Below are positions 233-18,605 of a stretch of DNA of 40,900 nt, piece by piece (the first letter of the stretch is position 1; every line of letters starts with the position of its first letter). Source of the stretch: Pirellulaceae bacterium. GTDB taxonomy: Bacteria > Planctomycetota > Planctomycetia > Pirellulales > Pirellulaceae. The notes beneath the pieces are model-generated. The model was not told the DNA's origin. It saw nothing but the letters and a program-made list of their open reading frames with translations, and made no database searches. A program made the position numbers and the translations under genes. The stretch covers positions 1-40,900 of the forward strand of contig JADYZV010000178.1 in NCBI GenBank assembly GCA_020852965.1, in the 5' to 3' direction.

Positions 233-1714
233 ATGACCGCTCAGCATAGCTTTCACGGCTACCAGACGGAAGGTTTCTACGACGAACTTTTCGACGAACA
301 TGGCAAGCCCCGACCTGGCGCAAAAGTTCTGCACGACTTCATCAACAGCTTCCAGCCGGGAGTGCTGCGTGAACGCCAAGAGGCGATTGAGCGTGCGCTG
401 CATCGCATGGGTATCACCTTCGCCGTTTATGGTGACGATAGCGGAACCGAGAAGATCTTTCCTTTCGACATCGTGCCGCGCATCGTCGAAGCCTACCAGT
501 GGAATCACATCGCGGCAGGCTTAAAGCAACGCATTCGCGCACTGAATCTATTCATTGACGACGTCTATCATAAGCAGTCCATTCTTAAAGATGGCGTCAT
601 TCCGACGGAGTTGGTTACCGGAGCGGAGTCGTTCCGAGCTCAGTGTGTAGGGATCACACCACCGCGCGGTATTTGGTGTCATATAACCGGCACCGACTTG
701 ATCCGCCATGACGATGGTGCCGTCTATGTGCTCGAAGACAATCTGCGCTGTCCTTCGGGAGTGTCGTATGTGTTGCAAAACCGCCTGCTGATGAAACGCA
801 GTTTTCCACAAGCATTCGCGGCCTCCAACGTACGTCCGGTCTTCAACTATGCAAGCCAGCTCTATGAAACGCTGGCCCACTTGGCACCACAGCATGTGGG
901 CAATGCACAAGTCGTCGTGCTCACGCCGGGCATATATAACTCGGCCTATTACGAACACTCGTTTCTGGCGCAGCAGATGGGCGTCGAACTGGTCGAAGGA
1001 CGCGACCTGGTGGTCAAGGATGGTTTCGTATACATGCGCATGACCGATGGATTCAAACGTGTCGACGTGATCTATCGTCGCATCGATGACAACTTCATCG
1101 ATCCGAAAGTGTTTCGCGCAGACTCGATGTTGGGTGTGCCTGGCTTGATGGAAGTTTATCGCAATGGTCGTGTCGCCTTGGCCAATGCGCCGGGGACTGG
1201 GATTGCGGACGACAAGGCAGTTTACGCTTATGTCCCCGACATGATTCACTATTACTTGAACGAAGAGCCGATCCTCCCCAACGTGCCTACCCTTATCTGC
1301 AGCCGTGAAGAGGATCGTAAATACGTACTGGCCAACTTGGACAAGCTGGTCGTCAAAGCGGCCAATGAAGCGGGCGGTTACGGCATGCTGATTGGCCCGC
1401 ATTCTACAGCCGAACAACAAGCCGAGTTTGCCAAACGCATCGAAGCACACCCGCGCAATTACATCGCTCAGCCGACGTTGTCTCTTTCTCGCGTACCGAC
1501 GATGGTCGGGGATCATTTCGAAGGCAGACACGTCGATTTGCGACCTTACATTCTCTACGGCAAAGACATTTGGGTCTTGCCTGGCGGGCTTACGCGAGTG
1601 GCCTTAAAGAAGGGCTCGTTGGTAGTCAATTCCTCGCAAGGTGGCGGGAGTAAGGATACGTGGGTGTTGGCTGATATTCCGGAGCAGGTCGCCGATGTGG
1701 AGGAGTCCCTATAA
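233..1714 (+). CDS. Circularly permuted ATP-grasp ligase (DUF404/DUF407, COG2308 type)
   Basis: Predicted ATP-dependent carboxylate-amine ligase, about 493 residues, the usual size for stand-alone members. The body from YDELFDEHGKPRPG through FPFDIVPRIV, VLEDNLRCPSGVSYVLQNR and PGIYNSAYYEHSFLA to the C-terminal KAANEAGGYGM loop (about residue 375) follows the family pattern. The Gly-rich loop and the basic residues around it are intact, so it should bind ATP. The frame is open upstream to 113, but homology starts only after the ATG at 233, so that start is preferred; no clear Shine-Dalgarno is seen. The stop overlaps the start of the alpha-E gene by one base (TAATG), implying translational coupling. 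In this family ATP-grasp, alpha-E and transglutaminase genes travel together and are thought to make or modify a peptide; the substrate is not known. Confidence 0.93.
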   Translation: MTAQHSFHGYQTEGFYDELFDEHGKPRPGAKVLHDFINSFQPGVLRERQEAIERALHRMGITFAVYGDDSGTEKIFPFDIVPRIVEAYQWNHIAAGLKQRIRALNLFIDDVYHKQSILKDGVIPTELVTGAESFRAQCVGITPPRGIWCHITGTDLIRHDDGAVYVLEDNLRCPSGVSYVLQNRLLMKRSFPQAFAASNVRPVFNYASQLYETLAHLAPQHVGNAQVVVLTPGIYNSAYYEHSFLAQQMGVELVEGRDLVVKDGFVYMRMTDGFKRVDVIYRRIDDNFIDPKVFRADSMLGVPGLMEVYRNGRVALANAPGTGIADDKAVYAYVPDMIHYYLNEEPILPNVPTLICSREEDRKYVLANLDKLVVKAANEAGGYGMLIGPHSTAEQQAEFAKRIEAHPRNYIAQPTLSLSRVPTMVGDHFEGRHVDLRPYILYGKDIWVLPGGLTRVALKKGSLVVNSSQGGGSKDTWVLADIPEQVADVEESL

Positions 1715-2730
1715 TGCTGAGCCGAGTTGCCGATTCGATTTATTGGATGTCGCGCTACGTCGAACGAGCCGAGAACCTGGCCCGTTTCGTGGACGTTACG
1801 TTCAACTTGATTCTCGATCAACCCAACATGGCGGCGAGCCAATGGGAACCGCTGGTATCCATCACCGGAGATGAAGAGTATTTTTCTAAAGAGTACGGTC
1901 AAGCGACGCAAGATAATGTGATTCAGTTCCTGGTATTCGATACCAAATACAGCGGCTCGATCATCTCTTGCCTGAGTCAAGCGCGTGAGAATGCCCGCAC
2001 GGTTCGCGAAGCCATTTCGTCCGAAGCCTGGGAGCAGATCAACAGCTTTTATCACAAAGTTCGCACGGCGTCGGTCGTCAGTACATCGAGCCACTCCACG
2101 CCAGAGTTCTTCGACACGGTTCGGGAACAAAGCCAACTTTTCAACGGCATTCTCGATGCCACGCTGTCGCAGGCCAGTGGCTGGCACTTTTCCAATCTAG
2201 GGCGATTGCTCGAACGGGCCGACAAGACCAGCCGTATCTTGGACGTAAAGTACTACACGTTGTTGCCGCGCGTCAACGATGTGGGGACCACCGTCGACGA
2301 CTTGCAGTGGTCAAGCGTGCTGCGCTCGGTGTCTGGCTTCGAGACGTTCCGCAAGCAGTTTCATACGATCACCGTGCATCGTGTGGTCGAGTTCCTAGTG
2401 CTCGACCGTTACTTCCCACGCTCGGTGCAGTTTTGCGTCGATCGCGCCGACGATTCGTTGCACGCCATTTCCGGTTCGCCGCTGAACACTTATCAGAATC
2501 CCGCCGAACAACGCTTGGGACGCCTCAAGGCCGAACTGGCCTATGCAGATGTACAGAGTATCGTCAACCAAGGCTTGCATGAATTCATTGACGATCTACA
2601 AATCAAGCTCAACGATGTAGCCAGCGCCATCTCCAATACTTTTTTCGCCCTGCGCCCCGTCGCAAACAGCCAAAGCCAGACTTTGAGCACTACGGTGCAA
2701 GGACAAACGCAATCGCAAACACGAATGTGA
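1714..2730 (+). CDS. Alpha-E domain protein (DUF403)
   Basis: All-alpha protein of 338 residues, the standard length for a single alpha-E domain. The N-terminus MLSRVADSIYWMSRYVERAE is the family signature, with conserved Arg and Glu residues. The closing part (VVEFLVLDRYFPRSVQFCVD) also fits. The alpha-E domain is rich in charged helices, its activity has never been shown, and it always sits beside or is fused to the permuted ATP-grasp ligase. Here it overlaps that gene by one base. The last 25 residues are Gln/Ser/Thr-rich and look like a disordered tail. The domain occurs again, fused, in the protein at 6512-9094. Confidence 0.93.
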   Translation: MLSRVADSIYWMSRYVERAENLARFVDVTFNLILDQPNMAASQWEPLVSITGDEEYFSKEYGQATQDNVIQFLVFDTKYSGSIISCLSQARENARTVREAISSEAWEQINSFYHKVRTASVVSTSSHSTPEFFDTVREQSQLFNGILDATLSQASGWHFSNLGRLLERADKTSRILDVKYYTLLPRVNDVGTTVDDLQWSSVLRSVSGFETFRKQFHTITVHRVVEFLVLDRYFPRSVQFCVDRADDSLHAISGSPLNTYQNPAEQRLGRLKAELAYADVQSIVNQGLHEFIDDLQIKLNDVASAISNTFFALRPVANSQSQTLSTTVQGQTQSQTRM

Positions 2731-2746
2731 GTCTGCTAGCCGCAAT

Positions 2747-2861
2747 GTAGCGGACGAGGCAACGAGTCCCTGAGTCTTACTGAATCAAACGGACTACGCT
2801 AAATGCGGACTCGTAACCTCGTCCACTACGCACTTTAGGGACTCGTAACCTCGTCCACTAC
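2747..2861. repeat. REP-like family A cluster
   Basis: A degenerate left arm (GCGGACGAGGCAACGAGTCC, 2750-2769) is followed by two direct copies of the right arm GGACTCGTAACCTCGTCC plus ACTAC, ending near 2830 and 2861. It fills most of the 187-base gap between the alpha-E gene and the next gene. Stem-forming arms could also attenuate read-through into 2918-6364; that role is inference. Confidence 0.8.
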
Positions 2862-2917
2862 AACAAATTGCACCATAATTCAATTCAGTTTTTTAGCTTA
2901 GCATCGGCTCATCCTCT

Positions 2918-5900
2918 ATGACTATTCGCGTCGCGCTCAATCACTTGACACGCTATCGCTACGACCAGTTGGCGACCATCCATCCGCAGGTCATACGCTT
3001 GAGACCGGCACCGCATTGCCGCACCCCCGTGCATAGCTATTCTCTCAAAGTGCAACCGGCCAATCACTTCGTCAACTGGCAACAGGACCCGCACGGCAAC
3101 TTTCTAGCTCGCTTTGTGTTTCCTGAAAAGGCGCGGAGCCTAGAAATCCAAGTCGACCTGGTAGTCGACATGACGGTCATCAACCCTTTCGACTTTTTTA
3201 TCGAAGAGTCGGCAACCAGCTTTCCGTTCAGCTACGAGCCTTGGCTGGCCGCCGAGCTAAAGCCCTATCTCGATACATCGGCCAGTACGCCCGCATTGAC
3301 CAAGTATGTGGGCCAAGTTCGCGAGCGCGCGCTGACTCGATCCGAGATGGGGACGACCGATTTTTTGGTCGCTGTCAATCAAGCGATTCAGCAAGATATC
3401 AGCTACAGCATTCGGCTCGAACCAGGGGTTCAAACGGCAGAGGAATCGCTCACGCTGCGCAGCGGATCCTGCCGTGATTCGGCTTGGCTGTTAGTGCAGG
3501 TTCTGCGAACACTAGGCTTGGCCGCCAGGTTCGTCTCGGGCTATTTGATTCAGTTGACAGCGGATATCGAGAGTCTGGATGGCCCCGCTGGTCCCACAGC
3601 CGACTTCACCGATCTGCACGCTTGGACGGAGGTCTTTCTACCTGGCGCCGGTTGGATTGGGCTCGATCCTACCTCGGGCTTACTCACCAGCGAGGGACAC
3701 ATTCCGCTGGCGGCCACCCCCGATCCTGTCTCAGCAGCCCCGATCACCGGCTCCATTGAAAAGTGCGAAGTCGAGTTTGATTTCGGCATGACGATCACGC
3801 GCATCCACGAAGACCCGCGTGTGACCAAGCCCTATACGCGGGAGCAGTGGGCCAGTATCGATGCCGTGGGCCAAGCCGTCGATCAGCGTTTGACTAGCGG
3901 TGATGTGCGTTTGACGATGGGCGGCGAGCCAACGTTTGTATCGATTGACGATATGGAAGGAGATGAATGGACGACGGCTGCGGTGGGCGAGAACAAACGT
4001 CAGTTATCGGAAACACTGATCAAACGCTTGCGTGAGCGCTTCACCACGGGCGGACTGCTACACTACGGTCAAGGGAAATGGTATCCGGGTGAATCGTTGC
4101 CACGCTGGTCGCTGGCCTGCTTCTGGCGCACCGATGGCCAAGCGATTTGGCAGGACGATTCATTGATTGCGGACACCGACGAAGATCATGGACTAAACGC
4201 CGAAGACGCAGAAATATTTCTGCACGCCTTGGCGGACAAGTTGAATGTCGAGCAGAGCTATATTGTCCCCGCCTTCGAGGACGTTGCTCACTTCTTGGTC
4301 CGCGAGCGGCAATTGCCGGTCAACGTCGACCCCACCGACCCCAAGCTCAAGGATCCGGAAGAGCGCTCGCGTTTGGTACGTGTGTTTCAACAAGGGATGA
4401 ATACACCGGTTGGTTACGTATTGCCCCTACGGCGTCAATGGTGGCAAGCTCGGCCACGCTGGACCAGCGGCCCTTGGCCAGTCCGCGCGAACCAACTGTT
4501 TTTGCTTCCGGGGGATTCGCCAATCGGCCTGCGTTTGCCGCTCGATTCACTCCCCTATGCTGCCGACGGTCCTAGCGATCCGCTGCGCTCGATCGACCCC
4601 ATGGCGCCCGTTTCGGATTTGCCGGCGCCCAATCAACCACAGCAACTCTCGATCGCTGTCGAGAACGCTCCGCAACCACAGCCCCTGCGACCTCAACGCT
4701 TGAGTGTCTCCAACACGGCAATCGTAGAGAAACTGCGTCAAGTGGCTGCGGACCGTCCGCACTTTGATCGCACACCTCCGCGATTGCGCTTGGCTGGCGA
4801 ACTGGTACGCGAACCATCTCCGGTCGCACCCGAGACAGTTCCAGCCGACAAGGTCATTCGAACTTCGTTGTGTGTCGAGGCGCGCGGCGGAAATTTGTTT
4901 GTCTTCATGCCACCAGTCGAACGGGTGGAAGATTATCTGGATTTAATTGCGGCTGTTGAGGCTACCGCCAGCGATTTGCAAGTCGCTGTGGTGGTCGAAG
5001 GCTATCAGCCTCCATCGGACCCGCGGCTGAACGTATTGAAAGTCACTCCCGATCCGGGCGTAATCGAAGTCAACACGCATCCGTCGGCCAGTTGGCAAGA
5101 GTTGGTCGACACGACGCGAACGCTGTACGAAGAAGCGCGGCTGACTCGTTTGGGAACAGAAAAATTCGATTTGGATGGCAAGCACACGGGTACCGGTGGC
5201 GGCAATCACATTGTGCTTGGCGGAGCGCATCCGAGCGACAGCCCCTTTTTGCGCCGCCCCGATGTGCTCAAGAGTCTACTGGGCTATTGGATCAACCATC
5301 CATCGCTGTCGTATCTATTCTGTGGACGATTCATCGGGCCTACCAGCCAAGCGCCGCGCGTGGACGAGGGTCGGCGCGATGCGCTATACGAGCTGGAGAT
5401 GGCTTTCGCGCAGGTCCCACCACGCGGCGAGGATTGCCCAGCTTGGTTGGTCGATCGCCTGTTTCGAAATCTGCTCGTCGACATGACGGGCAACACGCAT
5501 CGCGCCGAGTTCTGCATCGACAAACTCTATTCGCCTGACAGTAGTAGTGGTCGCCTGGGATTAGTTGAACTGCGCGGCTTCGAAATGCCGCCCCATCCAG
5601 AGATGAGTCTTACGCAGCAGTTGCTGATTCGCAGCCTGGTTGCCGCGTTTTGGGAGACCCCGTACGACGAGCCGATCATCGAGTGGGGGACGACGCTGCA
5701 TGATCGCTTTATGTTGCCCCACTTTGTATGGGACGATTTCAACTACGTGCTCGGCGATTTGTCGCGCCGCGGAGTACAGTTAGATCCCGCCTGGTTTGCT
5801 GCGCACTATGAGTTCCGCTTTCCACTTATCGGTGAGCTGCACAGCGATCAATTGTGGATCGAACTTCGCTCGGCCATCGAACCGTGGTACGTGCTGGGCG

Positions 5901-6364
5901 AGGAGCCGGCGGGAGGTGGCATGGCGCGCTATGTCGACTCGTCGGTCGAACGGCTGCAAGTGAAGGTGCGTGGTCTGATCGACCATCGTCACGCGATAAC
6001 TTGCAACGGCAGACGTTTGCCGCTGCATCCCACCGGATCGGCCGGCGAATTCGCCTGCGGCGTGCGTTACCGCGCGTGGCAGCCGCCGAGTTGCCTACAT
6101 CCAACGATTCCAGTCCATACACCCCTTACCTTCGATATAATCGACACCTCGGCGGGGCGCTCCTTGGACGGATGCTGCTATTATGTTTCACATCCGGCAG
6201 GGCGAACATACGAAACATTCCCTATCAATGCGGCGGAAGCGGAAGCGCGACGGTCGGCTCGCTTTTTTCGTATTGGCCATACGCCTGGAGCGATTAAAAT
6301 ACCAAGCACGGAAATGAACTCCTCGTTTCCAATGACTCTCGATCTGCGCCGCGCGCCCAGGTAG
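2918..6364 (+). CDS. Transglutaminase-like protease fused to DUF2126 putative amidoligase
   Basis: Large two-enzyme protein of 1148 residues, normal for this fusion. Residues about 1-290 hold the bacterial transglutaminase N-domain (MTIRVALNHLTRYRYDQL) and a papain-fold core with Cys185 (SGSCRDSAWLL), His234 (DLHAWTEVFLPG) and Asp250 (GLDPTSGLL), a complete triad. From about residue 325 (LTMGGEPTFVSIDDMEG) to near the end is DUF2126, a predicted glutamine-synthetase-like amidoligase. PGVIEVNTHPSASW and the Gly/His motif GTGGGNHIVLGG are the visible ligase-like signatures. A Pro/Gln-rich linker lies near residues 560-610. No signal peptide is visible, so it is probably cytoplasmic. Together with the two genes upstream this gives ligase, helical partner and peptidase/amidase in one group. 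The start has no clear Shine-Dalgarno. Confidence 0.93.
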   Translation: MTIRVALNHLTRYRYDQLATIHPQVIRLRPAPHCRTPVHSYSLKVQPANHFVNWQQDPHGNFLARFVFPEKARSLEIQVDLVVDMTVINPFDFFIEESATSFPFSYEPWLAAELKPYLDTSASTPALTKYVGQVRERALTRSEMGTTDFLVAVNQAIQQDISYSIRLEPGVQTAEESLTLRSGSCRDSAWLLVQVLRTLGLAARFVSGYLIQLTADIESLDGPAGPTADFTDLHAWTEVFLPGAGWIGLDPTSGLLTSEGHIPLAATPDPVSAAPITGSIEKCEVEFDFGMTITRIHEDPRVTKPYTREQWASIDAVGQAVDQRLTSGDVRLTMGGEPTFVSIDDMEGDEWTTAAVGENKRQLSETLIKRLRERFTTGGLLHYGQGKWYPGESLPRWSLACFWRTDGQAIWQDDSLIADTDEDHGLNAEDAEIFLHALADKLNVEQSYIVPAFEDVAHFLVRERQLPVNVDPTDPKLKDPEERSRLVRVFQQGMNTPVGYVLPLRRQWWQARPRWTSGPWPVRANQLFLLPGDSPIGLRLPLDSLPYAADGPSDPLRSIDPMAPVSDLPAPNQPQQLSIAVENAPQPQPLRPQRLSVSNTAIVEKLRQVAADRPHFDRTPPRLRLAGELVREPSPVAPETVPADKVIRTSLCVEARGGNLFVFMPPVERVEDYLDLIAAVEATASDLQVAVVVEGYQPPSDPRLNVLKVTPDPGVIEVNTHPSASWQELVDTTRTLYEEARLTRLGTEKFDLDGKHTGTGGGNHIVLGGAHPSDSPFLRRPDVLKSLLGYWINHPSLSYLFCGRFIGPTSQAPRVDEGRRDALYELEMAFAQVPPRGEDCPAWLVDRLFRNLLVDMTGNTHRAEFCIDKLYSPDSSSGRLGLVELRGFEMPPHPEMSLTQQLLIRSLVAAFWETPYDEPIIEWGTTLHDRFMLPHFVWDDFNYVLGDLSRRGVQLDPAWFAAHYEFRFPLIGELHSDQLWIELRSAIEPWYVLGEEPAGGGMARYVDSSVERLQVKVRGLIDHRHAITCNGRRLPLHPTGSAGEFACGVRYRAWQPPSCLHPTIPVHTPLTFDIIDTSAGRSLDGCCYYVSHPAGRTYETFPINAAEAEARRSARFFRIGHTPGAIKIPSTEMNSSFPMTLDLRRAPR

Positions 6365-6371
6365 GGCGTCA

Positions 6372-6395
6372 GGGACTCGTAACCTCGTCCACTAC
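6372..6395. repeat. Single arm of REP-like family A
   Basis: One copy of the right arm (GGGACTCGTAACCTCGTCC then ACTAC) lies eight bases after the stop of the transglutaminase/DUF2126 gene. No opposing arm is found nearby, so this is a solo half element. Confidence 0.75.
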
Positions 6396-6408
6396 GGTTA
6401 CCAGTGGT

Positions 6409-6432
6409 GAACCATTGTTCCAACAATGGTTC
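6409..6432. promoter_or_regulatory. Operator-like palindrome upstream of the second ligase gene
   Basis: Two perfect 11-base arms, GAACCATTGTT and AACAATGGTTC, are separated by CC. The frame of the next gene is open through this site from a GTG at 6404, but family homology begins only after about 6540. The palindrome is therefore more likely leader DNA than coding. It could bind a dimeric regulator; no T-tract follows, so a terminator role is less likely. Confidence 0.4.
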
Positions 6433-6475
6433 AGGGCATCGGCTTGCTTTACCCCGCAAAAACCCCATACAATTG

Positions 6476-6491
6476 GGGACAATTGTTCTAC
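6476..6491. promoter_or_regulatory. GGGACAAWTGTTCTAC motif, copy 1
   Basis: The motif GGGACAATTGTTCTAC sits about 20 bases before the probable start at 6512 and is followed by TTTTCAATAG. A near copy followed by AATAG lies before tmk at 37664. It resembles GAAC-N4-GTTC operator half-sites, but that similarity is weak and the role is inferred only from position. Confidence 0.25.
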
Positions 6492-6511
6492 TTTTCAATA
6501 GCGAATCAACT

Positions 6512-9094
6512 TTGGCAGATGGTCCTCAACTAGTTAATTCGCAAGCGGAGCAGTTCCGGCGCGTGCTGGCCGAATACCGGGCCACCGACAGCAGCTTCGA
6601 TGAGGCGGTAACGGCCGAGGGAGTACTGCGCCCCAGTTGGCAAGAGCTGTTTCAACATTTGGGTGGTCTGAGCTTCACGGAAGTGCATCGCCGCCTTGCT
6701 CAGGCACAGCATCAAATGGATATCGACGGGGTGGCCTTCAACCCCTACGACGCGCGTGGTGCGACGCGTCCCTGGAGTCTGGATGCGGTTCCATTAGTTT
6801 TGGAGCAAGCTGAGTGGAATCAGGTCGCACTAGGCCTTGAACAGCGTGCCAAATTGGCCGATCTATTGCTGCTCGATCTGCTCGGGCCACAAACGCTGCT
6901 GCACGAGAAGATTCTTCCACCCGAGGCGCTGTTTGCCCATCCGCGCTATTTTCCCGCCTATCACTCGCTGATCCCACGTCCCAAGCGTCATTTGCAGCTA
7001 TACGCCTCCGATTTAGCGCGCAGCCCCAGTGGTCAGTGGTGGGTGACCGCCGATCGCACGCGCTGTCCATTTGGTCTGGGGCATATCCTAGAGAACCGGC
7101 TGGTTTCGTCGCGCATGTTTCCCGTGCCTTTTGGCATGTGCAATGTGCGACGACTGGCACCGTTCTTCATCACGTTGCAACAAACCTTTCGTGAGTTAGC
7201 GCATCGCTATCGCGAGAATCCGCGAATTGCCATTTGGTCCAAAGGTCCTAAGAGCCGCGCCTATTTTGAGGACGCGTTTCTGGCGCGCTATCTGGGCTAT
7301 GCCTTGGTCGAAGGGGATGACTTGGCGGTACGCGATAACAAAGTCATGCTCAAGACGCTCGGCGGCCTGCTACCCGTTGAAGTGCTACTGCGCCGCGTCG
7401 AAGATCATCATTGCGATCCGGCCGAATTGTCAGGAGGCGAGAGCTATGGCGTTTCTGGATTGCTAGAAGTGATTCGCAATGGCCATGTGAGCGTCGGCAA
7501 TTCCATCGGAAGCGGCCTGGCCGAATCGCCGCTGCTGATGGCGTTCATGTCCAACATCTGTAAGCATTTCTTAGACCAAGATCTGCTGCTCCCCTCGCTG
7601 GCCACTTGGTGGTGCGGTCGCCCCGATGCGCTCAAATACGTGCTCAGCAATATCGATAAACTGACCGTTCGCCGCGCCTATCGTAGCGAAGACGAGCCCC
7701 CCTATCAGCCACGAGCCATGTCGGGAGAGGCCAAGGCGCGCTTGATCGAACGCATCAAAGCCGCGCCGGGAATGTACATCGGCCAAGAGCAGGTCAATCG
7801 ATCTACGGCTCCCGTGTGGGAGCAGGGACAATTGCAAGCCTGGTCACTGGCCCTTCGCGCTTTCCTGGTTGCCAAAGGAGACACGTACGAAACACTGCCG
7901 GGATCGTTAGCTCGCGTCTCGCCCGATCCAGACGTACTGCTCCATAACATGACCAGCGGCGAAAAGAGCCAAGACGTGTGGATCGTCTCCAACCAACCTA
8001 TATCGCCCGTCTCGCTGCTGAGTGTCGCCAGTGCCCAGGTCGAGCTGAAACGTGGTGGCGCCGAATTACCCAGCCGAGCGGCTGACAATCTGTTCTGGCT
8101 GGGACGCAATGTGGAACGTGCCGAGCAGTTGACGCGGTTGGTACGCATCACCCTACAACAACTGACCAGTGGCGAAGCGGTCGAATCGGCCGCCTCTGGA
8201 TTGGCCTACGCCTGCCAACAAGCCAAACAGCTCTCCAGCGAAAAGAAAATACCCAGCAGTCGTGCCGCCCTGGCCCGGCAACTCGTAGTGAACGTATTGA
8301 ACCCTGATGACATCTACTCACTGCGTAACGTTGTTCGCGCTGCCCACGACTCGGCTATGAAAGTTCGCGATCGTATCGCGCTGGACATACTGCGCGCGAT
8401 CAATGACCTGCGTGTCATTTTCGAAGCCAACCTGTCGAGCGAAGAAGTGGCCGCTACGGAAATGGTTAGCGCACTCGATCTGGCCCTGACGTCGTTGAAT
8501 GCCATCAGCGGCTTGGCCAGCGAAAGCATGACTCGTACTCAAGGCTGGCGGTTTCTCGACTTGGGCCGGCGGTTAGAAAGGGCCTATCAGACCGCGCGCA
8601 CCATTCGCAGCCTGATCCCACTTCAAGCTAGTGGGGTAGACTCGACTCGGGCACTCGAATACCTATTGCAAATCTGCGATAGTTTTATGACCTATCGCAA
8701 TCGTTATCTGGCCAATATGCAATTGGCGGCAGTACTCGATCTGTTGGTGACCGACGATACCAATCCGCGCTCAATCGCCTATCAACTGCAGTTAATCCAC
8801 CAGCACGTCGAGCAATTGCCGCGCCCCGATACGCAGGCGGGTATGACGCCCGAGCAGCGTTTGGCACTTTCACAATACAACGCAGTCCGCTTGAGCGACG
8901 TGCATGAGTTGGCGGCTAAAGACAATCGCAGCGAACTGTCGTCGCTGCACAAGGTGCTCAATCGAATGCTGGAGAAACTGCCCGAATTGTCCGACGCGAT
9001 CAGCGGTCGCTTCTTGATTCATGCGGGCTTGCAACGGCATTTGGCCAGTGCGAGCATTGCTGAGAATCCGAATCCAGGAGGGATGCAGGCATGA
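6512..9094 (+). CDS. Fused permuted ATP-grasp ligase and alpha-E protein
   Basis: Second version of the ligase system, with ATP-grasp (about residues 1-500) and alpha-E (about 520-840, starting LPSRAADNLFWLGRNVERAE) in one chain. The ATP-grasp half keeps the family's RPWSLDAVPLV, DRTRCPFGLGHILENRLV and GPKSRAYFEDAFLARYLG motifs. Where the stand-alone ligase has KAANEAGGYGM, this one reads TVRRAYRSEDEPPYQP, so the Gly-rich loop is absent and nucleotide binding or substrate may differ. The frame is open from a GTG at 6404, but those extra 36 residues cover a palindrome and a promoter-like stretch. The TTG at 6512 is preferred, giving about 860 residues. The stop overlaps the next start (ATGA, 9091-9094), so the two are surely co-expressed. 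Confidence 0.88.
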   Translation: MADGPQLVNSQAEQFRRVLAEYRATDSSFDEAVTAEGVLRPSWQELFQHLGGLSFTEVHRRLAQAQHQMDIDGVAFNPYDARGATRPWSLDAVPLVLEQAEWNQVALGLEQRAKLADLLLLDLLGPQTLLHEKILPPEALFAHPRYFPAYHSLIPRPKRHLQLYASDLARSPSGQWWVTADRTRCPFGLGHILENRLVSSRMFPVPFGMCNVRRLAPFFITLQQTFRELAHRYRENPRIAIWSKGPKSRAYFEDAFLARYLGYALVEGDDLAVRDNKVMLKTLGGLLPVEVLLRRVEDHHCDPAELSGGESYGVSGLLEVIRNGHVSVGNSIGSGLAESPLLMAFMSNICKHFLDQDLLLPSLATWWCGRPDALKYVLSNIDKLTVRRAYRSEDEPPYQPRAMSGEAKARLIERIKAAPGMYIGQEQVNRSTAPVWEQGQLQAWSLALRAFLVAKGDTYETLPGSLARVSPDPDVLLHNMTSGEKSQDVWIVSNQPISPVSLLSVASAQVELKRGGAELPSRAADNLFWLGRNVERAEQLTRLVRITLQQLTSGEAVESAASGLAYACQQAKQLSSEKKIPSSRAALARQLVVNVLNPDDIYSLRNVVRAAHDSAMKVRDRIALDILRAINDLRVIFEANLSSEEVAATEMVSALDLALTSLNAISGLASESMTRTQGWRFLDLGRRLERAYQTARTIRSLIPLQASGVDSTRALEYLLQICDSFMTYRNRYLANMQLAAVLDLLVTDDTNPRSIAYQLQLIHQHVEQLPRPDTQAGMTPEQRLALSQYNAVRLSDVHELAAKDNRSELSSLHKVLNRMLEKLPELSDAISGRFLIHAGLQRHLASASIAENPNPGGMQA

Positions 9095-9978
9095 CGCAAA
9101 GAATCGCCTATCGCCTATCGCATGTCACCACCTATAGCTACGACTCGCCAGTGCGCGTCTGCCACAATCTGGTGATGCTCACGCCGCGAAATAGCTCCGT
9201 GCTCGAGCTCATCCATCATCGCGTAACGATCAAACCTCATCCGCTGGTACTCAATCGCCGCGAGGATTACTTTGGCAATACGTTGCATGCCTTCTCGATC
9301 GAAGAGAGCCATCGACAATTGACGGTCTCGGCATCAGGGCGCGTGGAAGTCGAGTATTCAGAACTTCCCCCCGCTGCACAAACTTTACCATGGGAACAAG
9401 TGCGCGAGGCTGTAGTGGCACAAAGTGATCCGCGTTGGTTAGAAGCCTGTCAATTCCGCTTCAACTCACAGCGCATCCAGGCAAGTGCAGAGTTCGCCGA
9501 CTATGCTCGGGTTTCTTTTCAGCCCAATCGACCGATTTTAGAAGCTGCTTTTGAATTGACCCAGCGAGTCTTTCAAGACTTTGTCTACGACACGACCGCG
9601 ACCAATGTCAACACACCAACCAAAACGGCTTTCGAGCTGCGGCGTGGAGTCTGTCAAGACTTTGCCCATGTGCAGATCGCTTGCTTGCGATCGATGGGAT
9701 TGTGTGCGAGGTACGTGAGCGGCTACTTGCGCACGCACCCAGCGGCAGGCCAGCCCAAGTTGGTAGGCGCTGATGAATCGCACGCTTGGGTGTCGGTCTA
9801 TTGCGGACAGCAACTGGGTTGGGTTGATTTAGATCCGACCAATAACAAATACTGTAACGTCGACCACATCCCAATCGCCTGGGGACGCGACTATAGCGAT
9901 GTCGTCCCCATTCGCGGTGTATTTCTCGGTGGTGGTAAGCACATCATCACCGTCTCCGTCGACGTGGCTGAAGCGTGA
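9091..9978 (+). CDS. Transglutaminase-like cysteine protease, short form
   Basis: Stand-alone transglutaminase-family protein of 295 residues. The N-domain begins IAYRLSHVTTYSYDSPVRVC and the core carries Cys188 (RRGVCQDFAHVQ), His231 (ESHAWVSVY) and Asp248 (DLDPTNN), a full papain-like triad. It is translationally coupled to the ATP-grasp/alpha-E fusion by an ATGA overlap. No signal peptide is seen. Members of this group are usually annotated only by fold; cleavage of, or transamidation onto, the product of the adjacent ligase is the natural guess but unproved. It closes the second ligase set. Confidence 0.94.
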   Translation: MTQRIAYRLSHVTTYSYDSPVRVCHNLVMLTPRNSSVLELIHHRVTIKPHPLVLNRREDYFGNTLHAFSIEESHRQLTVSASGRVEVEYSELPPAAQTLPWEQVREAVVAQSDPRWLEACQFRFNSQRIQASAEFADYARVSFQPNRPILEAAFELTQRVFQDFVYDTTATNVNTPTKTAFELRRGVCQDFAHVQIACLRSMGLCARYVSGYLRTHPAAGQPKLVGADESHAWVSVYCGQQLGWVDLDPTNNKYCNVDHIPIAWGRDYSDVVPIRGVFLGGGKHIITVSVDVAEA

Positions 9979-12349: not shown

Positions 12350-12479
12350 TAGTGGTCTGTCACAGCTTAATTTTAGGGTAGTGGACGAGGTTACGAGTCC
12401 GTTTGGCTTGGCAGATGCATGGGACTCGTAACCTCGTCCACTACCTTCAACCCTAAATCTTAGCTGTGACAGAGGACTA
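12350..12479. mobile_element. MITE-like palindrome enclosing a family A REP pair
   Basis: The 130-base element has imperfect outer inverted ends of about 29 bases (TAGTGGTCTGTCACAGCT on the left; TAGTCCTCTGTCACAGCT on the right, read inward). Inside these lies a complete family A inverted pair (12378-12444). It encodes nothing and fills the space between two convergent genes. CTAG and CTAA flank the ends, too little to call a target duplication. It could act as a bidirectional terminator. Confidence 0.6.
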
Positions 12480-13625: not shown

Positions 13626-16600
13626 TCAGTCGCGCAGGGTGAGACCCAGTGGGAGGGCTTCACCAAGTAGTTGTGTAGCTTCTTCGCTGGCCAAGCGTCC
13701 TCCGTTGCGAACCAGGGCGATGGCACGAGCAGATCGATGGGGCATACTCTCCAACCGCGCAATGACCGATTGGCGAATCGATTCGGATACGTCGCGGTAA
13801 CGATCGTCGACTCGCCGCGCACAGAGCATCAGCGCAAGATTGAGCTCGGGTGCGGTCGAGCGTAGTCCAATTAGCACACTCAACCAGCGCTCGACTCGCT
13901 CGCTTTCGACGACGCAGTTGAGCGGTCCATAGGCGGGAGTGCGATTGCCCAGTCGACCTAACGTCCAGAGCATCGCTCCCTGACTGGCAGACCATTTCTT
14001 CACTGGCAGGAGTTCAAGCAGCCATTGTCCCAACTGCGACTTCTCGCTTTTGGGTAGCAATTCGAGCGAACCGACCAGTCGCAAGAGTTCGACCAACTCT
14101 TGTGGGCTGAGGGAGATACCACCTTTGCTGCGACGATGAGGATCGAGCACTCCGCGCAGTGGTCCGGCGACCTGTTGGTATACGGTCAATTGCTGCCCGG
14201 CGGTAAAGCCGCCGGCGATGCGCCGCCATAACACCAGGGCTTCATTGCGTGAACTGGCCGTCGGGAAGCAGAGCTTGCCATGCACGCTGCGCCAGGTCTG
14301 AGCAACTCGCCAATCATCGGCGGCCAAGCCATAGCCGGGACGTAGGGTATAGCCGAGCAGGTTGAGCCAGCGAGCTTCGTGCGCAGGACTGATTCGACGA
14401 CCTTCCTGAAGTTCGATGAGGCTGCTCCACATTCCCCGCAGTAGGTGCGGTGGCCAATCGCTCGACCGTAGTGACAAGGCTTCCGCCAAAGCTGTTTTCA
14501 GTTTGGCAGGCTTGATAGTCGACTGTTCGCCGAAAGTTTGGGCGAGAACGCGATCAGCCACCCCGATCAATTGCTCGTCGACTATGCCCGCTTGATTGGC
14601 GCTGGCTTCGAGCGGATTGTGGTCGGTCTGAATACTACCGCGCACATCGAACTCGAGCTTCCAACGCTCCGTCGAGCCGGCAGCGTGGCAATACATTTGC
14701 AGCGTGCCAATTTGAGTTAATTCGGTTTCGACATACACCGGCAAAGTCGCCTGTCGCCGGTTGGCGCTGTGTTCAATCACCGTGCGAATCGGTGGTAGGA
14801 AAGCAAAGTGCTCAGCTTCGATGGCTACACTTTGACCGACGCGATCGGACAGCCTTGTACTCGAGTATAGGATAGGGAATTGAACCGGTTGGCCAATGGC
14901 CAGCTCCATGGCTTGATCCGTCAATTGGAATTTATCTCCCGGAGAAGCGGAGCCGGGAACGATACAAATGGCTCGAGGCGGCTGGGTACTGGTCTGCATG
15001 TAAAAAGAACACGCCAATTTGGCTTCGATCTCGATACCATGTCCGCGGCGGACCTGCCCGAAGTAGGCTGCTCCACGGGCCACCGCCAAATCGAGTCGCT
15101 CGGCATCGAGCACACCGGCGCGCCAATCTGCAGCGACATCGGACACTCCGGCAAACCAAGCGGCGATGGTCGACTCGAGCCGCTCTCGTAGTTGCGGGCT
15201 GGTCATTACGCCGCCGTTGAATAACAGCCAGTCGGGCCGCGCGGCAGCAATTTCCGCTGGAGATGTTTGCAAAGTCGCCGTGGAATCGGTGGCGGAACCG
15301 ACAGTGGAATCGACAGCGTTCGGTTCGTCGCGACCATCCCAACGATGCGCCCACAGAAAGGCAGCCAAGTGTTTGGTTATCGCTGGATCGCGTGCGAAGG
15401 GGAGTCCAAACTCTTGAAAGCCCGTCTGTTGGTTGTCGGGGCGGTCGCCGAGCGCACACCTGGGGAAGAAGCCATCGACGACGCACAGGTCGACTTCTTC
15501 GCGGCACAATTCAACCTGTCGGCCGCTGGCTATCAGCCGCGAGCCGCTACCAGGTAGATGCAGCGTAGTTGACTCCGGCGGCTCAGCCCCTAGCAAGGAC
15601 TCTTTGGCCGCGCGACATGCTTGGCGCAGTGCATCCCAACTGCGACTCGAAAGCGGACTGCTACCGCCGGCGTTTTGAGCGGCCAGCTTTTGTTCGGCCA
15701 GCCGAGCGAGCGCGAGATCGATATTGTCGCCACCCAAGATTAAATGCTGTCCGACGGCAACCCGATGCAGCGACAATTTGGCACGATGTTCAGCAGCCAG
15801 CGTTTCACCATCGTCGCTATTCGTGGAGGTGTCTCGCACGCGAATGAGAGTAAAGTCGGTGGTGCCCCCGCCTATATCGCAGACCAGAATGGTTTGTCCA
15901 GGTGCAAGCTGCTGCTCCCAGTTGCCGGCTTGTCGTGCGAGCCAGGCGTAACAGGCGGCTTGCGGCTCTTCGATCGGTAGGATGCGATGGAGTCCCGCTT
16001 CAGCAGCCGCCTCGATCGTCAGTTGTCGTGCGACTTGATCGAACGATGCGGGGAGCGTGATCACGATATCTTGTTGAGCCAGTGGCTGGCTGGGATGTGC
16101 TCGATCCCAAACGCGCACCATGTGAGCTAGTAGTTCAGCGCTGGCAGAAACGGGGGAGATTTTCTCGACATCGTCTTCGTTCTGCCAAGGCAAAATCGGA
16201 GCGCGGCGATCGACGCCATCATGGCACAGCCAACTTTTGGAAGATGCGATTTGCCTACCTGGTAATTGCATGCCCCGCTCGCGCGCCAAAACGCCGGCGA
16301 TGCGTTGGGGAGAGGTCGCATTGCCCAACGACAGCGATGTGAGCTCCTCGGCCTGAGGTTGATAGAGGAACGACGGGAGTAGTTCGCGCCGCGCACTCGC
16401 TCCCAAGTCGACCCATTGCTCCAATGGAAAGTTCTCGATCGCGATGGTTGTTGCGGATGAAGCGGCGACTGTTGATGACGCTTGAGTGGTGTCGATGTAG
16501 GCTACGGCGCAGTTGGTAGTGCCCAGATCGATGCCGACGACGTAACGGCTGAGGGTTTGTTCGAAGCCATCGGGGGAATTCTGAGTGGGGTCGTGGTTGG

Positions 16601-16730
16601 TTGATGCGGCAAGGGAATCCGACGCGGAGCGTCGGGCCACATTCTTTGAATCGGAGGCGGAGCTGCGGGTCATATTCTCTTTTTCCGACGCGGAGCGTCG
16701 GGCCACATTGGAAGAAGGCTTGCCACTCAC
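13626..16730 (-). CDS. Hsp70-like ATPase with DUF3731-type C-terminal region
   Basis: DnaK-superfamily protein of 1034 residues. The actin-fold ATPase has the phosphate loops VVGIDLGTTNCAVAY (about residues 63-77) and CDIGGGTTDFTLI. After about residue 600 comes a large extension with Trp/Arg-rich helical segments (WKLEFDVRG, LLRGMWSSLIELQEGRR, LNLLGYTLRPGYG) typical of DUF3731 Hsp70s. The frame is open to an ATG at 16805, 79 bases inside the previous gene. The GTG at 16730 gives a 4-base GTGA overlap with that gene's stop and has GAGG ten bases upstream, so it is preferred. The first 40 residues come from a 33-bp repeat (separate entry). It has no DnaJ or GrpE neighbour, so it is not housekeeping DnaK; the client is unknown. 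Confidence 0.9.
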   Translation of the reverse strand: MSGKPSSNVARRSASEKENMTRSSASDSKNVARRSASDSLAASTNHDPTQNSPDGFEQTLSRYVVGIDLGTTNCAVAYIDTTQASSTVAASSATTIAIENFPLEQWVDLGASARRELLPSFLYQPQAEELTSLSLGNATSPQRIAGVLARERGMQLPGRQIASSKSWLCHDGVDRRAPILPWQNEDDVEKISPVSASAELLAHMVRVWDRAHPSQPLAQQDIVITLPASFDQVARQLTIEAAAEAGLHRILPIEEPQAACYAWLARQAGNWEQQLAPGQTILVCDIGGGTTDFTLIRVRDTSTNSDDGETLAAEHRAKLSLHRVAVGQHLILGGDNIDLALARLAEQKLAAQNAGGSSPLSSRSWDALRQACRAAKESLLGAEPPESTTLHLPGSGSRLIASGRQVELCREEVDLCVVDGFFPRCALGDRPDNQQTGFQEFGLPFARDPAITKHLAAFLWAHRWDGRDEPNAVDSTVGSATDSTATLQTSPAEIAAARPDWLLFNGGVMTSPQLRERLESTIAAWFAGVSDVAADWRAGVLDAERLDLAVARGAAYFGQVRRGHGIEIEAKLACSFYMQTSTQPPRAICIVPGSASPGDKFQLTDQAMELAIGQPVQFPILYSSTRLSDRVGQSVAIEAEHFAFLPPIRTVIEHSANRRQATLPVYVETELTQIGTLQMYCHAAGSTERWKLEFDVRGSIQTDHNPLEASANQAGIVDEQLIGVADRVLAQTFGEQSTIKPAKLKTALAEALSLRSSDWPPHLLRGMWSSLIELQEGRRISPAHEARWLNLLGYTLRPGYGLAADDWRVAQTWRSVHGKLCFPTASSRNEALVLWRRIAGGFTAGQQLTVYQQVAGPLRGVLDPHRRSKGGISLSPQELVELLRLVGSLELLPKSEKSQLGQWLLELLPVKKWSASQGAMLWTLGRLGNRTPAYGPLNCVVESERVERWLSVLIGLRSTAPELNLALMLCARRVDDRYRDVSESIRQSVIARLESMPHRSARAIALVRNGGRLASEEATQLLGEALPLGLTLRD
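16616..16714. repeat. Three 33-bp REP-like units inside an Hsp70 gene (family B)
   Basis: Units at 16616-16648, 16649-16681 and 16682-16714. The outer two contain the perfect hairpin CCGACGC-GGA-GCGTCGG followed by GCCACATT; the middle one is degenerate. Because 33 is a multiple of three the frame is kept. On the minus strand it encodes three 11-residue units, NVARRSASEKE, NMTRSSASDSK and NVARRSASDSL, ahead of the ATPase domain. Confidence 0.85.
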
Positions 16731-18529
16731 GTTTGCGCGGCCTCGACTTCTTCGCGCACGTTGAATTCGAGCTTCCATTGCTGGTCGTCGCGAGTGCTCT
16801 TGCAATACAATTCAAAGACCCCCAACTCCGACACGCGACTGTGGAAGCGGACCGGTACGAATCCCTCCTCGGGAGCTTCGGCCACGTCGAGCGTGAGTTC
16901 CATAGGTGCCGTCTCGACCAGCTCGGTTTCGTCCCAGTCACGCAGAGTCGTCCCGACCGCATCCTGTTTGCGATCGGCGGCGGCAAAGAATCGAAACTTG
17001 GCCTCGCGCCCGACGACTAGTCCAATCTCACGACCCGGGACATCCAGCTCGCTCCCCTCCTCCATACCGAACGGCACCACACAGACGGCTTGCAGAGGTC
17101 GCGGCATTCCAGGAATCGCCAGCCCTGCCGATTCGACTCCCACGTAATAGCTGCGCGCCGTGCCACCACGAATGCGCACGCCGCCGAATTGTTTGGTCCA
17201 ACCGTAATGCGCCGCGCCCCGCGCCACGGCAAAGTCTAAATCGTCGACCATTCCTAGAATTTGTGGTGTGGTTTCATGGCGGTCGCTACCGCGCAGCCCG
17301 GTGACTACTGCGCTCAGACGTTGCCGTAACGCTTCGGATTTGAAGACACCCCCATTGAGCATCAACAACATCCGCGCATCGTGCGGGATGTCATTGCGGG
17401 CCAGAAAGGCAGCCAAGTGCCGCGTGATGGCGGTGTCGGATTCGAATGGAAGCCCCAATTCTTGAAAGCCGGATTGCGTCCCACGCAGCGGTCGTGCATC
17501 GACTTCGACGATGGGTAAAAAACCATCGACGAGCAGCGATTGTACCTCTTCGCGAGTTAGCTCAACGCTGACGGTGCCACCAATCAATTTGGAACCGCGC
17601 CCGAGTACTGAGACCGTCTCGGTTGTTTTACCATCGCTGGCAAGCAACGATTCTTTGGCGCGACGACAACTATGCCACAGCGCGATCGATTGCCAGGCGT
17701 TGAGCTTGGTACCCTGCGCGGCAAACTTCTGCGCAACGTGGTGGGCTAGGGCCAAGTCCATGTTGTCCCCACCGACCAGTAGGTGGTCGCCGACCGCCAA
17801 TCGTCGCAGTACCAACTCTCCCTGCTCTTGTTCGGCGCGGACCAAGGTGAAATCGGTAGTGCCTCCACCGACGTCGCAGACGAGCAGGCAATCTCCTTCG
17901 CGCATGACCTTGCGCCAATTATCACCCGACTGTTCTAGCCAATGATAGACGGCGGCTTGCGGTTCTTCGAGCAGGATGAAATCGACGGGCAGACCAGCGG
18001 CCAATGCCGCTTCGCGCGTGAGCTCCCGCGCGGCCATGTCAAACGAGGCGGGGACGGTGAGTGTCACCAATTGTTCCGACAGCGGCGCGTCGGGGAACTG
18101 AGTTTGCCAGGTATCGACCAGTTGCCGCAATAACAATTTGCAGGCAACCACCGGCGAAAATTTCGTGACGTCCGCATCGCTCCCCCACGGCAAAATCGGC
18201 GCATGCCGGTCGACCCCCGCATGGCACAGCCAACTCTTGGCTGCCGCAATAGTGCGATCGGGGCGCTCGGCAGAAATCCCTCGCGCGTAGCTTCCCTGCA
18301 CCGTGGGATAGTCGGGTAAGCCGGGAACCGTGAGCGTCCCCGATGCACTCTCTTCGGCGGTAGGGACGTACAAAAAGCTCGGCAGGCTGGTCGACGACTC
18401 GGTCTGCTGGGGTGCGGTAACCTGTTCGAGCTTCAGCAGCTCGATGGCCGGTCGTTGGTCGGAGAGTTCGGTGTAGGCGACGACACAGTTGGTTGTCCCC
18501 AGATCGATTCCGATGGAATATTTTTTCAT
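16727..18529 (-). CDS. Hsp70-like ATPase, short form
   Basis: DnaK-superfamily protein of 600 residues starting MKKYSIGIDLGTTNCVVAY. The ATG at 18529 puts the first phosphate loop at residues 7-14, where Hsp70 proteins have it; the upstream ATG at 18559 adds ten residues without homology. The second loop CDVGGGTTDFTLV is intact, as is the adenosine-side motif LMLNGGVFKSEALRQRL. The C-terminus after about residue 480 is a short beta-rich domain ending WKLEFNVREE, parallel to the matching WKLEFDVRG region of the longer paralogue. A helical lid like that of DnaK is missing. It overlaps the next Hsp70 by four bases, so the two are presumably made together and may form a pair. A DUF2760 gene lies upstream, as in related genomes. 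Confidence 0.92.
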   Translation of the reverse strand: MKKYSIGIDLGTTNCVVAYTELSDQRPAIELLKLEQVTAPQQTESSTSLPSFLYVPTAEESASGTLTVPGLPDYPTVQGSYARGISAERPDRTIAAAKSWLCHAGVDRHAPILPWGSDADVTKFSPVVACKLLLRQLVDTWQTQFPDAPLSEQLVTLTVPASFDMAARELTREAALAAGLPVDFILLEEPQAAVYHWLEQSGDNWRKVMREGDCLLVCDVGGGTTDFTLVRAEQEQGELVLRRLAVGDHLLVGGDNMDLALAHHVAQKFAAQGTKLNAWQSIALWHSCRRAKESLLASDGKTTETVSVLGRGSKLIGGTVSVELTREEVQSLLVDGFLPIVEVDARPLRGTQSGFQELGLPFESDTAITRHLAAFLARNDIPHDARMLLMLNGGVFKSEALRQRLSAVVTGLRGSDRHETTPQILGMVDDLDFAVARGAAHYGWTKQFGGVRIRGGTARSYYVGVESAGLAIPGMPRPLQAVCVVPFGMEEGSELDVPGREIGLVVGREAKFRFFAAADRKQDAVGTTLRDWDETELVETAPMELTLDVAEAPEEGFVPVRFHSRVSELGVFELYCKSTRDDQQWKLEFNVREEVEAAQT

Positions 18530-18605
18530 GCGTATACTCGATAGGATGTATGTGCCCAAACATAAGCGTCAAGTCTTACTCAGCAACCGTGGCTAACATT
18601 CCTAC

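Follow-up and report, generated by a model that had tools for sequence, protein, structure and literature searches.

Two ATP-grasp/alpha-E/transglutaminase modules in a planctomycete member of a predicted amidoligase system

Five neighbouring genes at positions 233-9978 of contig JADYZV010000178.1, from a Pirellulaceae bacterium, are a planctomycete member of the predicted amidoligase system built from circularly permuted (CP) ATP-grasp, alpha-E and transglutaminase-like proteins: CP ATP-grasp, alpha-E and Bact_transglu genes lie side by side, and the proteasome-like Anbu gene is missing. The window that we analyzed is the entire 40,900-bp contig, which belongs to an 8.37-Mb planctomycete genome that is 99.5% complete. 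We propose, with a probability of roughly 0.5, that the cluster comprises two modules acting on one nitrogen-starvation product, with module A as the core and module B contributing a ligase of the DUF2126 family.

Gene content and membership of the two modules

Module A consists of G1, a CP_ATPgrasp_2 protein (233-1714, + strand; Pfam E 1.1e-170), and A1, a stand-alone Alpha-E protein (1714-2730, +; Pfam E 9.9e-107 over 294/294 positions). Module B is made up of TGD (2918-6364, +), in which Bact_transglu_N and Transglut_core domains precede a DUF2126 domain matched over 826/826 positions; F2 (6404-9094, +), a fusion of CP_ATPgrasp_2 with an Alpha-E part that we call A2; and T2 (9091-9978, +), with Bact_transglu_N and Transglut_core domains. 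All five genes were assigned by Pfam, and no NCBIfam model matched any of the five proteins at E values up to 0.001. G1 and A1 overlap in the sequence TAATG (1712-1716) and F2 and T2 in ATGA (9091-9094), and there is no overlap between A1 and TGD (187-bp gap, 2731-2917) or between TGD and F2 (39-bp gap). The start of F2 is doubtful, as its frame runs from a GTG at 6404 and residues 1-40 are modeled at a predicted local distance difference test score (pLDDT) below 50. The source genome contains only two alpha-E and two Bact_transglu_N matches, all of them within this cluster. A first-pass annotation made from the sequence alone had described these genes, domains and overlaps, which Pfam and the sequence confirm, and had placed two parallel ligase/alpha-E/transglutaminase sets in a known predicted amidoligase system of unknown product, a placement that our analysis bears out.

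To which module TGD belongs was read from occurrence and position across 294 planctomycete genomes, where alpha-E was found in 74 and DUF2126 in 56; omitting four weak partial alpha-E matches left 70 alpha-E genomes. Module-A alpha-E is present in 70/70 of these genomes, F2 in 54 and DUF2126 in 56 (G041, G101 and G183 were counted as stand-alone module A by profile class despite long open frames). F2 and DUF2126 occur together in 52 genomes, DUF2126 without F2 in 4, F2 without DUF2126 in 2 and neither in 12, so that F2 accompanies DUF2126 in 52/56 genomes, DUF2126 accompanies F2 in 52/54, and the two co-occur in 52 of the 58 genomes having either. The single alpha-E, F2 and DUF2126 lie at most 12 kb apart in 32 of the 52 genomes with all three. 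Among the 20 split genomes, F2 is the neighbour of DUF2126 in 12 and the single alpha-E in 4, 3 have DUF2126 next to neither, and G003 has DUF2126 pieces beside F2 and beside the single alpha-E on different contigs. By occurrence and position, TGD is a member of module B with F2, and the earlier assignment of the DUF2126 gene to the first set does not hold.

The first-pass annotation had also expected the two sets to be kept together in relatives, which is the case in 32/52 genomes; in the other 20 they are apart. Contig ends may account for some of these separations. In G176, G205 and G226, each a single contig, and in G209, with two contigs, the sets are truly apart, and no contig-end effect can explain the distance in genomes assembled this completely. 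The five-gene grouping is nevertheless not a product of chance, given that 32/52 planctomycete genomes keep the markers within 12 kb and that these genes are also found side by side in other phyla. Loci of the best 80 of 586 confirmed TGD relatives in genome contigs came from Verrucomicrobiota, Acidobacteriota, Pseudomonadota, Nitrospirota, Thermodesulfobacteriota and some Planctomycetota. Of these loci, 67/80 contain F2 or at least its ATP-grasp part, 61/80 contain F2 together with T2, and 30/80 contain a module-A gene (15 upstream on the same strand, 13 divergent). F2 was absent from 13/80 loci, and for 8 of these 13 more than 8 kb is available downstream of TGD, so a contig end does not explain why it is missing there. 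The exact one-strand order G1-A1-TGD-F2-T2 occurs in 15 of 61 profile-classified loci (the window plus 60 chosen loci). Among these loci, a module A that stands alone often has the order G1-A1-(Anbu)-TG, where TG denotes a further transglutaminase-like gene.

In trees built on subsamples, A1 and A2 are parted by a 100/100 branch, the F2 ATP-grasps form one 100/100 group among the branches listed, and TGD and T2 are each monophyletic (100/99). The TGs of planctomycete module-A operons are the group that TGD joins (99/95), and other TGs are scattered. Modules A and B are old paralogues and not the outcome of a recent local duplication.

Predicted ligases, transglutaminase-like enzymes and alternative partners

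G1 has the features of a metal-dependent ATP-grasp ligase. Its nearest solved chain is 3n6x (E 3.9e-165), a chain that the F2 sequence matches too, and the G1 residues D155, E168 and N170 are invariant across 72/72 module-A ATP-grasps. In a profile alignment (E 5e-8; six of seven GSP_synth rows, one row without the motif being omitted), these columns fall on the D..E.N set of GSP_synth homologues, which we take to coordinate the metal in glutathionylspermidine synthetase and in glutathione synthetase. G1 thus keeps the metal-ligand positions of such a ligase. The alpha-E proteins carry two ER motifs, which are kept in 77/77 A1-type proteins and in 89 to 95 of 95 A2 parts, depending on position. 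No solved relative of A1 was found at E below 0.4.

The metal site of F2 is altered. F2 retains D203, and A216 and R218 stand where G1 has E and N; the F2 columns align with the same D..E.N set (profile alignment, E 8e-8). Across 97 F2 proteins the E position is occupied by A in 41, G in 24, S in 18 and N in 7, and the N position is replaced by R in 87/97, versus N in 72/72 G1 proteins. The Gly-Gly loop that is invariant in G1 is not retained, and lysine K375 is K in only 59/97, while R485, D524 and W526 are present in 97/97. The overall fold is kept: the F2-G1 profile alignment runs end to end over 484 columns, and the AlphaFold model (pLDDT 85) matches 3n6x by Foldseek at E 2.7e-28, followed by eukaryote-type glutathione synthetases from E 1e-9. 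Lacking two of three metal-ligand positions, the F2 ATP-grasp is probably inactive as a ligase, and the working ligase of module B is therefore probably DUF2126. That the replacement Arg is itself conserved indicates that F2 is under constraint and has not simply decayed. The fold of F2 is shared with Cp1B (9cjn), described as a ligase of fungal E-64 synthesis; we saw no connection between Cp1B and the amidoligase system.

Assignment of the family that combines a transglutaminase-like with a carboxylate-amine ligase domain to the glutamine synthetase (GS) fold was published in 2008 (PMC2588565), together with the superfamily motifs Ex[EH] and Ex[RK]x2D for GS-fold carboxylate-amine ligases. 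In DUF2126, E884, R886 and E889 form an Ex[RK]x2D-like motif that is invariant in 44 rows. We regard DUF2126 as a predicted GS-type ligase, a moderately supported assignment whose weaker points are taken up below. The transglutaminase part of TGD carries a C185/H234/D250 triad that is kept in 111/111 TGD proteins, and T2 a C188/H231/D248 triad kept in 91/91. The triad is likewise present in 12/12 planctomycete module-A TGs; among 13 other TGs the Cys is present in 11 and replaced by Ser in 2. The two enzymes may cut or cross-link the product, as the first-pass annotation had supposed. The TG parts encoded in the window match the solved chains 3isr and 6g49, and the TGD model (pLDDT 80) has 3isr as its nearest Foldseek match (E 7e-14) among many transglutaminases.

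The first-pass annotation had noted that Anbu is absent from the window, and this absence extends to the whole source genome, which has 0 matches to PF00227 and 0 to an Anbu profile made from 8 planctomycete sequences. Anbu is present in 14/70 alpha-E planctomycete genomes (three of the 14 matches span in-frame stops) and is therefore optional. It lies directly 3' of the module-A alpha-E in 11 of the 14, downstream of TGD in G243 and elsewhere in G160 and G176. None of the 32 genomes in which the sets are joined has Anbu, versus 14/38 of the others (Fisher p 5e-5); 5 of the 20 genomes with unjoined F2 and DUF2126 have it; and it occurs in 6/56 genomes with DUF2126 versus 8/14 without (Fisher p 5e-4), p values that overstate the difference because the genomes counted are related. 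Anbu and module B thus behave as alternatives beside the G1-A1 core. The G243 locus (L099, 7669-12879) has the order G1-A1-TGD without F2, and Anbu follows TGD at a distance of about 1.2 kb.

Another Ntn-type (N-terminal nucleophile) domain occupies Anbu's place in G033 and G101, which carry DUF2126 without F2. Here one open frame directly 3' of alpha-E encodes both a TG and a domain of GATase_4 fold (E 4e-73 and 2e-65; assigned by Pfam in the G101 protein) (L114, 8873-11458, - strand; L121, 12713-15421, + strand). Near their starts the two proteins read MTRLLAMSFD and VSQLLGLSFD, with Thr or Ser at the position of the Cys that is usual in the GATase_4 family. PF00227 matches were absent from the source genome (G000) and present in 9/9 other genomes sampled from its family; the only match in G160 is its Anbu, and the match in the other eight is probably HslV.

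Proposed nitrogen control and neighbouring sequences

Published work links relatives of this system to nitrogen limitation. The Pseudomonas putida operon PP_2685-2688 is considered likely to be under NtrB/NtrC control by the authors of PMC7801951, who report for three listed strains that nitrogen limitation raised expression of PP_2686-2688 by 11- to 37-fold and that of PP_2685 less, by 1.1 to 4.8; PMC3325844 is a further report on nitrogen control of the operon. PMC8050072 identifies PP_2688 as a circularly permuted ATP-grasp, describes PP_2685 as a proteasome-like subunit, and reports a nitrogen response at the PP_2688 promoter and none at the PP_2685 promoter. In Burkholderia cenocepacia, I35_5080-5083 are among the common targets of NtrC and sigma-54 (PMC5491218).

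We scanned for the sigma-54 site TGGCACG-N4-TTGCW, allowing at most 2 mismatches with GG and GC fixed, from 500 bp before to 120 bp after each assigned start; as the most upstream start was assigned, sites up to 120 bp inside the frame are counted, and several lie there. Among planctomycete loci, sites were found at G1 in 8/31, versus 9/350 for the remaining open reading frames (ORFs) at those loci (p 1.1e-5), while F2 (0/28), alpha-E (2/34) and TG (1/32) show no significant enrichment. In a second, mostly non-planctomycete collection, sites were found at G1 in 11/23 (p 1.7e-9) and at TGD in 21/70 (p 3.3e-11), versus 22/589 other ORFs, rows that are not independent because several come from close Pseudomonas and Burkholderiales; F2 (5/53, p 0.06) and alpha-E were not significantly enriched. 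A shuffle control agrees with the enrichment at G1 and TGD. Such enrichment fits the NtrC control that has been published for Pseudomonas and for Burkholderia. The source genome encodes RpoN. Window-wide, sigma-54 matches with at most 3 mismatches numbered 75 versus 76.65 expected, and generic promoter and terminator scans of the window were no better than chance.

A 23-bp repeat, GGACTCGTAACCTCGTCCACTAC, several times paired in inverted or direct orientation, is found 5' of G1 (27-49), in the A1-TGD gap (2747-2769, 2807-2829 and 2839-2861; two exact copies and one with 3 mismatches), in the TGD-F2 gap (6373-6395) and beyond the cluster (12378-12400 and 12422-12444). It has 575 copies genome-wide with at most 2 mismatches, versus 0 for the reversed control. 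The remainder of the window carries ordinary genes. Two adjacent divergent Hsp70-like genes lie at 13626-18559 (- strand), one with DUF3731 at its end.

The first-pass annotation had suggested looking for a small substrate protein among conserved neighbours. We clustered the 1358 ORFs that flank 141 loci (minimum length 50 or 60 amino acids, within 5 kb) and saw no conserved small substrate gene near the system in the 40 largest clusters, which were inspected. The largest cluster spans at most 13/141 loci. Recurrent flanking families include Pseudomonas lineage synteny, with a 90-94-amino-acid protein in 5 loci, and a ComEC-like protein in Burkholderiales (identified by Pfam for one). A putative metallopeptidase with a zinc ribbon and Peptidase_Mx lies near clusters of several lineages (5/141 loci: L187, at 6152-7273 on the - strand and the only one assigned by Pfam, and, by family, L097, L099, L180 and L185), and an ABC ATPase near 6/141 loci is the sole transporter-like cluster recognized outside the Pseudomonas synteny among those inspected. 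We also considered pupylation: no Pup-like gene was recognized in the flank clustering, although no search aimed at Pup was made, and PMC2588565 reports no Pup for the transglutaminase and carboxylate-amine ligase family. No product is named for the system in the literature that we searched, and a search for DUF2126 by name returned no paper. PMC12096838, PMC10318531 and PMC10274813 deal with other transglutaminases or contain no more than a citation.

Competing accounts and relation to known systems

In the account that we favor, G1, with its intact metal site, would activate a carboxylate as an acyl phosphate and, partnered by alpha-E, couple it to an amine, and the GS-type domain of DUF2126 would then form a second amide bond, yielding a small peptide or amide. 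F2 would probably serve as a binding or scaffold subunit, and TGD and T2, as thiol enzymes, would hydrolyze or transfer amide or isopeptide bonds. Module B beside module A would fill the place that Anbu, usually with a TG of its own, takes in operons with module A only, and transcription in the source organism would proceed from sigma-54/NtrC-type promoters under nitrogen limitation. More tentatively, GS-type chemistry in DUF2126 may have replaced ATP-grasp chemistry in module B, leaving the ATP-grasp/alpha-E body as a pseudo-ligase scaffold, with module B and the Ntn-type hydrolases (Anbu, GATase_4-fold) as alternative partners of an ATP-grasp/alpha-E core in a nitrogen-starvation pathway across phyla; we consider this wider proposal less likely than not.

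Several observations weigh against the two-module account. Within the organism's own family, the one-strand order is found in only 2/10 genomes, the modules being convergent in 7 and the markers on different contigs in 1. For DUF2126, Foldseek matches of TGD to GS-fold chains are weak (9qur, E 0.007, probability 0.90; 4s17, E 0.05; 2wgs, E 0.09), hhalign found no significant similarity to GCS2 (E 0.016 at a probability of 2.8%, with 12 rows), and the strand-1 sequence, GGEPTF, does not show Ex[EH] in its literal form. Six of the 56 DUF2126 genomes carry Anbu, and relatedness among the genomes tempers the p values for alternation given above. The Arg conserved in 87/97 F2 proteins may point to a changed activity of F2 instead of a lost one. 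As to nitrogen control, planctomycete TGD is not significantly enriched in sigma-54 sites (3/32, p 0.07), TGs of the second collection are weakly enriched (6/48, p 0.014), which the account does not predict, and there is no sigma-54-like site in the 232 bp that precede G1 in the window.

The first-pass annotation had supposed that two ligases of different specificity act on one product. An active F2 with a changed metal site and a different amino-acid specificity is compatible with the retention of the whole fold, seen in both the 484-column alignment and the model, and of R485, D524 and W526 in every F2 protein; the replacement of E and N in nearly all of them, the variability of K375 and the loss of the Gly-Gly loop argue the other way and make this explanation doubtful. 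A role in nitrogen salvage, in which the thiol enzymes, Anbu and the metallopeptidase cut amide or isopeptide bonds to release nitrogen while the ligases reuse the fragments or store them, would fit NtrC/sigma-54 control, the Peptidase_Mx neighbours and metagenomes that link these domains with urea metabolism (PMC3597751). Yet ligation costs ATP and each module retains a predicted ligase, and the only transporter-like neighbour recognized in the inspected clusters outside the Pseudomonas synteny is the ABC ATPase at 6 of the 141 loci; we judge salvage to be unlikely. Protein tagging, in which ligases attach a peptide to proteins and its removal falls to TG enzymes and, in other genomes, to Anbu, has been put forward in the literature for Anbu operons. 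It is the least probable of these explanations: apart from lineage synteny, no small protein gene recurs in the inspected clusters, the 2008 paper (PMC2588565) favored peptide metabolites on the same ground, and in a published assay Anbu had no peptidase activity.

The cluster resembles several described systems in part. The Anbu operons of P. putida (PP_2685-2688) and Yersinia bercovieri contain the same kinds of genes as module A, with PP_2687, called hypothetical in the papers, inferred from operon order to be the alpha-E gene; the window's genome, by contrast, has no Anbu, and TGD occupies the slot after alpha-E. The family described in PMC2588565, including Mycobacterium tuberculosis Rv2566, shares the domain order of TGD, N-terminal transglutaminase-like and C-terminal ligase-type, and its function, like that of TGD, is a prediction only. 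The NtrC/sigma-54-dependent B. cenocepacia genes I35_5080-5083 (DUF404/407, DUF403, TG and a large TG protein that is probably TG-DUF2126) have ATP-grasp and alpha-E genes as in the window, but an additional TG lies between alpha-E and the large TG gene; Burkholderia sp. TSV86 (L148) has the order G1-A1-T1-TGD-F2-T2. RloABC and RimK-RimB likewise group an ATP-grasp ligase with a transglutaminase-like protein and a peptidase and have a role in stress, but their ATP-grasp is RimK-like, the transglutaminase is membrane-bound and inactive, the peptidase is an aspartic peptidase, and the accessible descriptions mention neither alpha-E nor DUF2126.

The gene system is widespread, reaching M. tuberculosis (Rv2566; PMC2588565), and the question of its product dates from 2008-2009. 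Our analysis refines the known system in its module membership, in a probable pseudo-ligase and in the alternation with Anbu, and carries the sigma-54 link to Planctomycetota. Testability is gained in the form of a core with alternative partners, one ATP-grasp that is predicted to be inactive, and nitrogen limitation as a growth condition.

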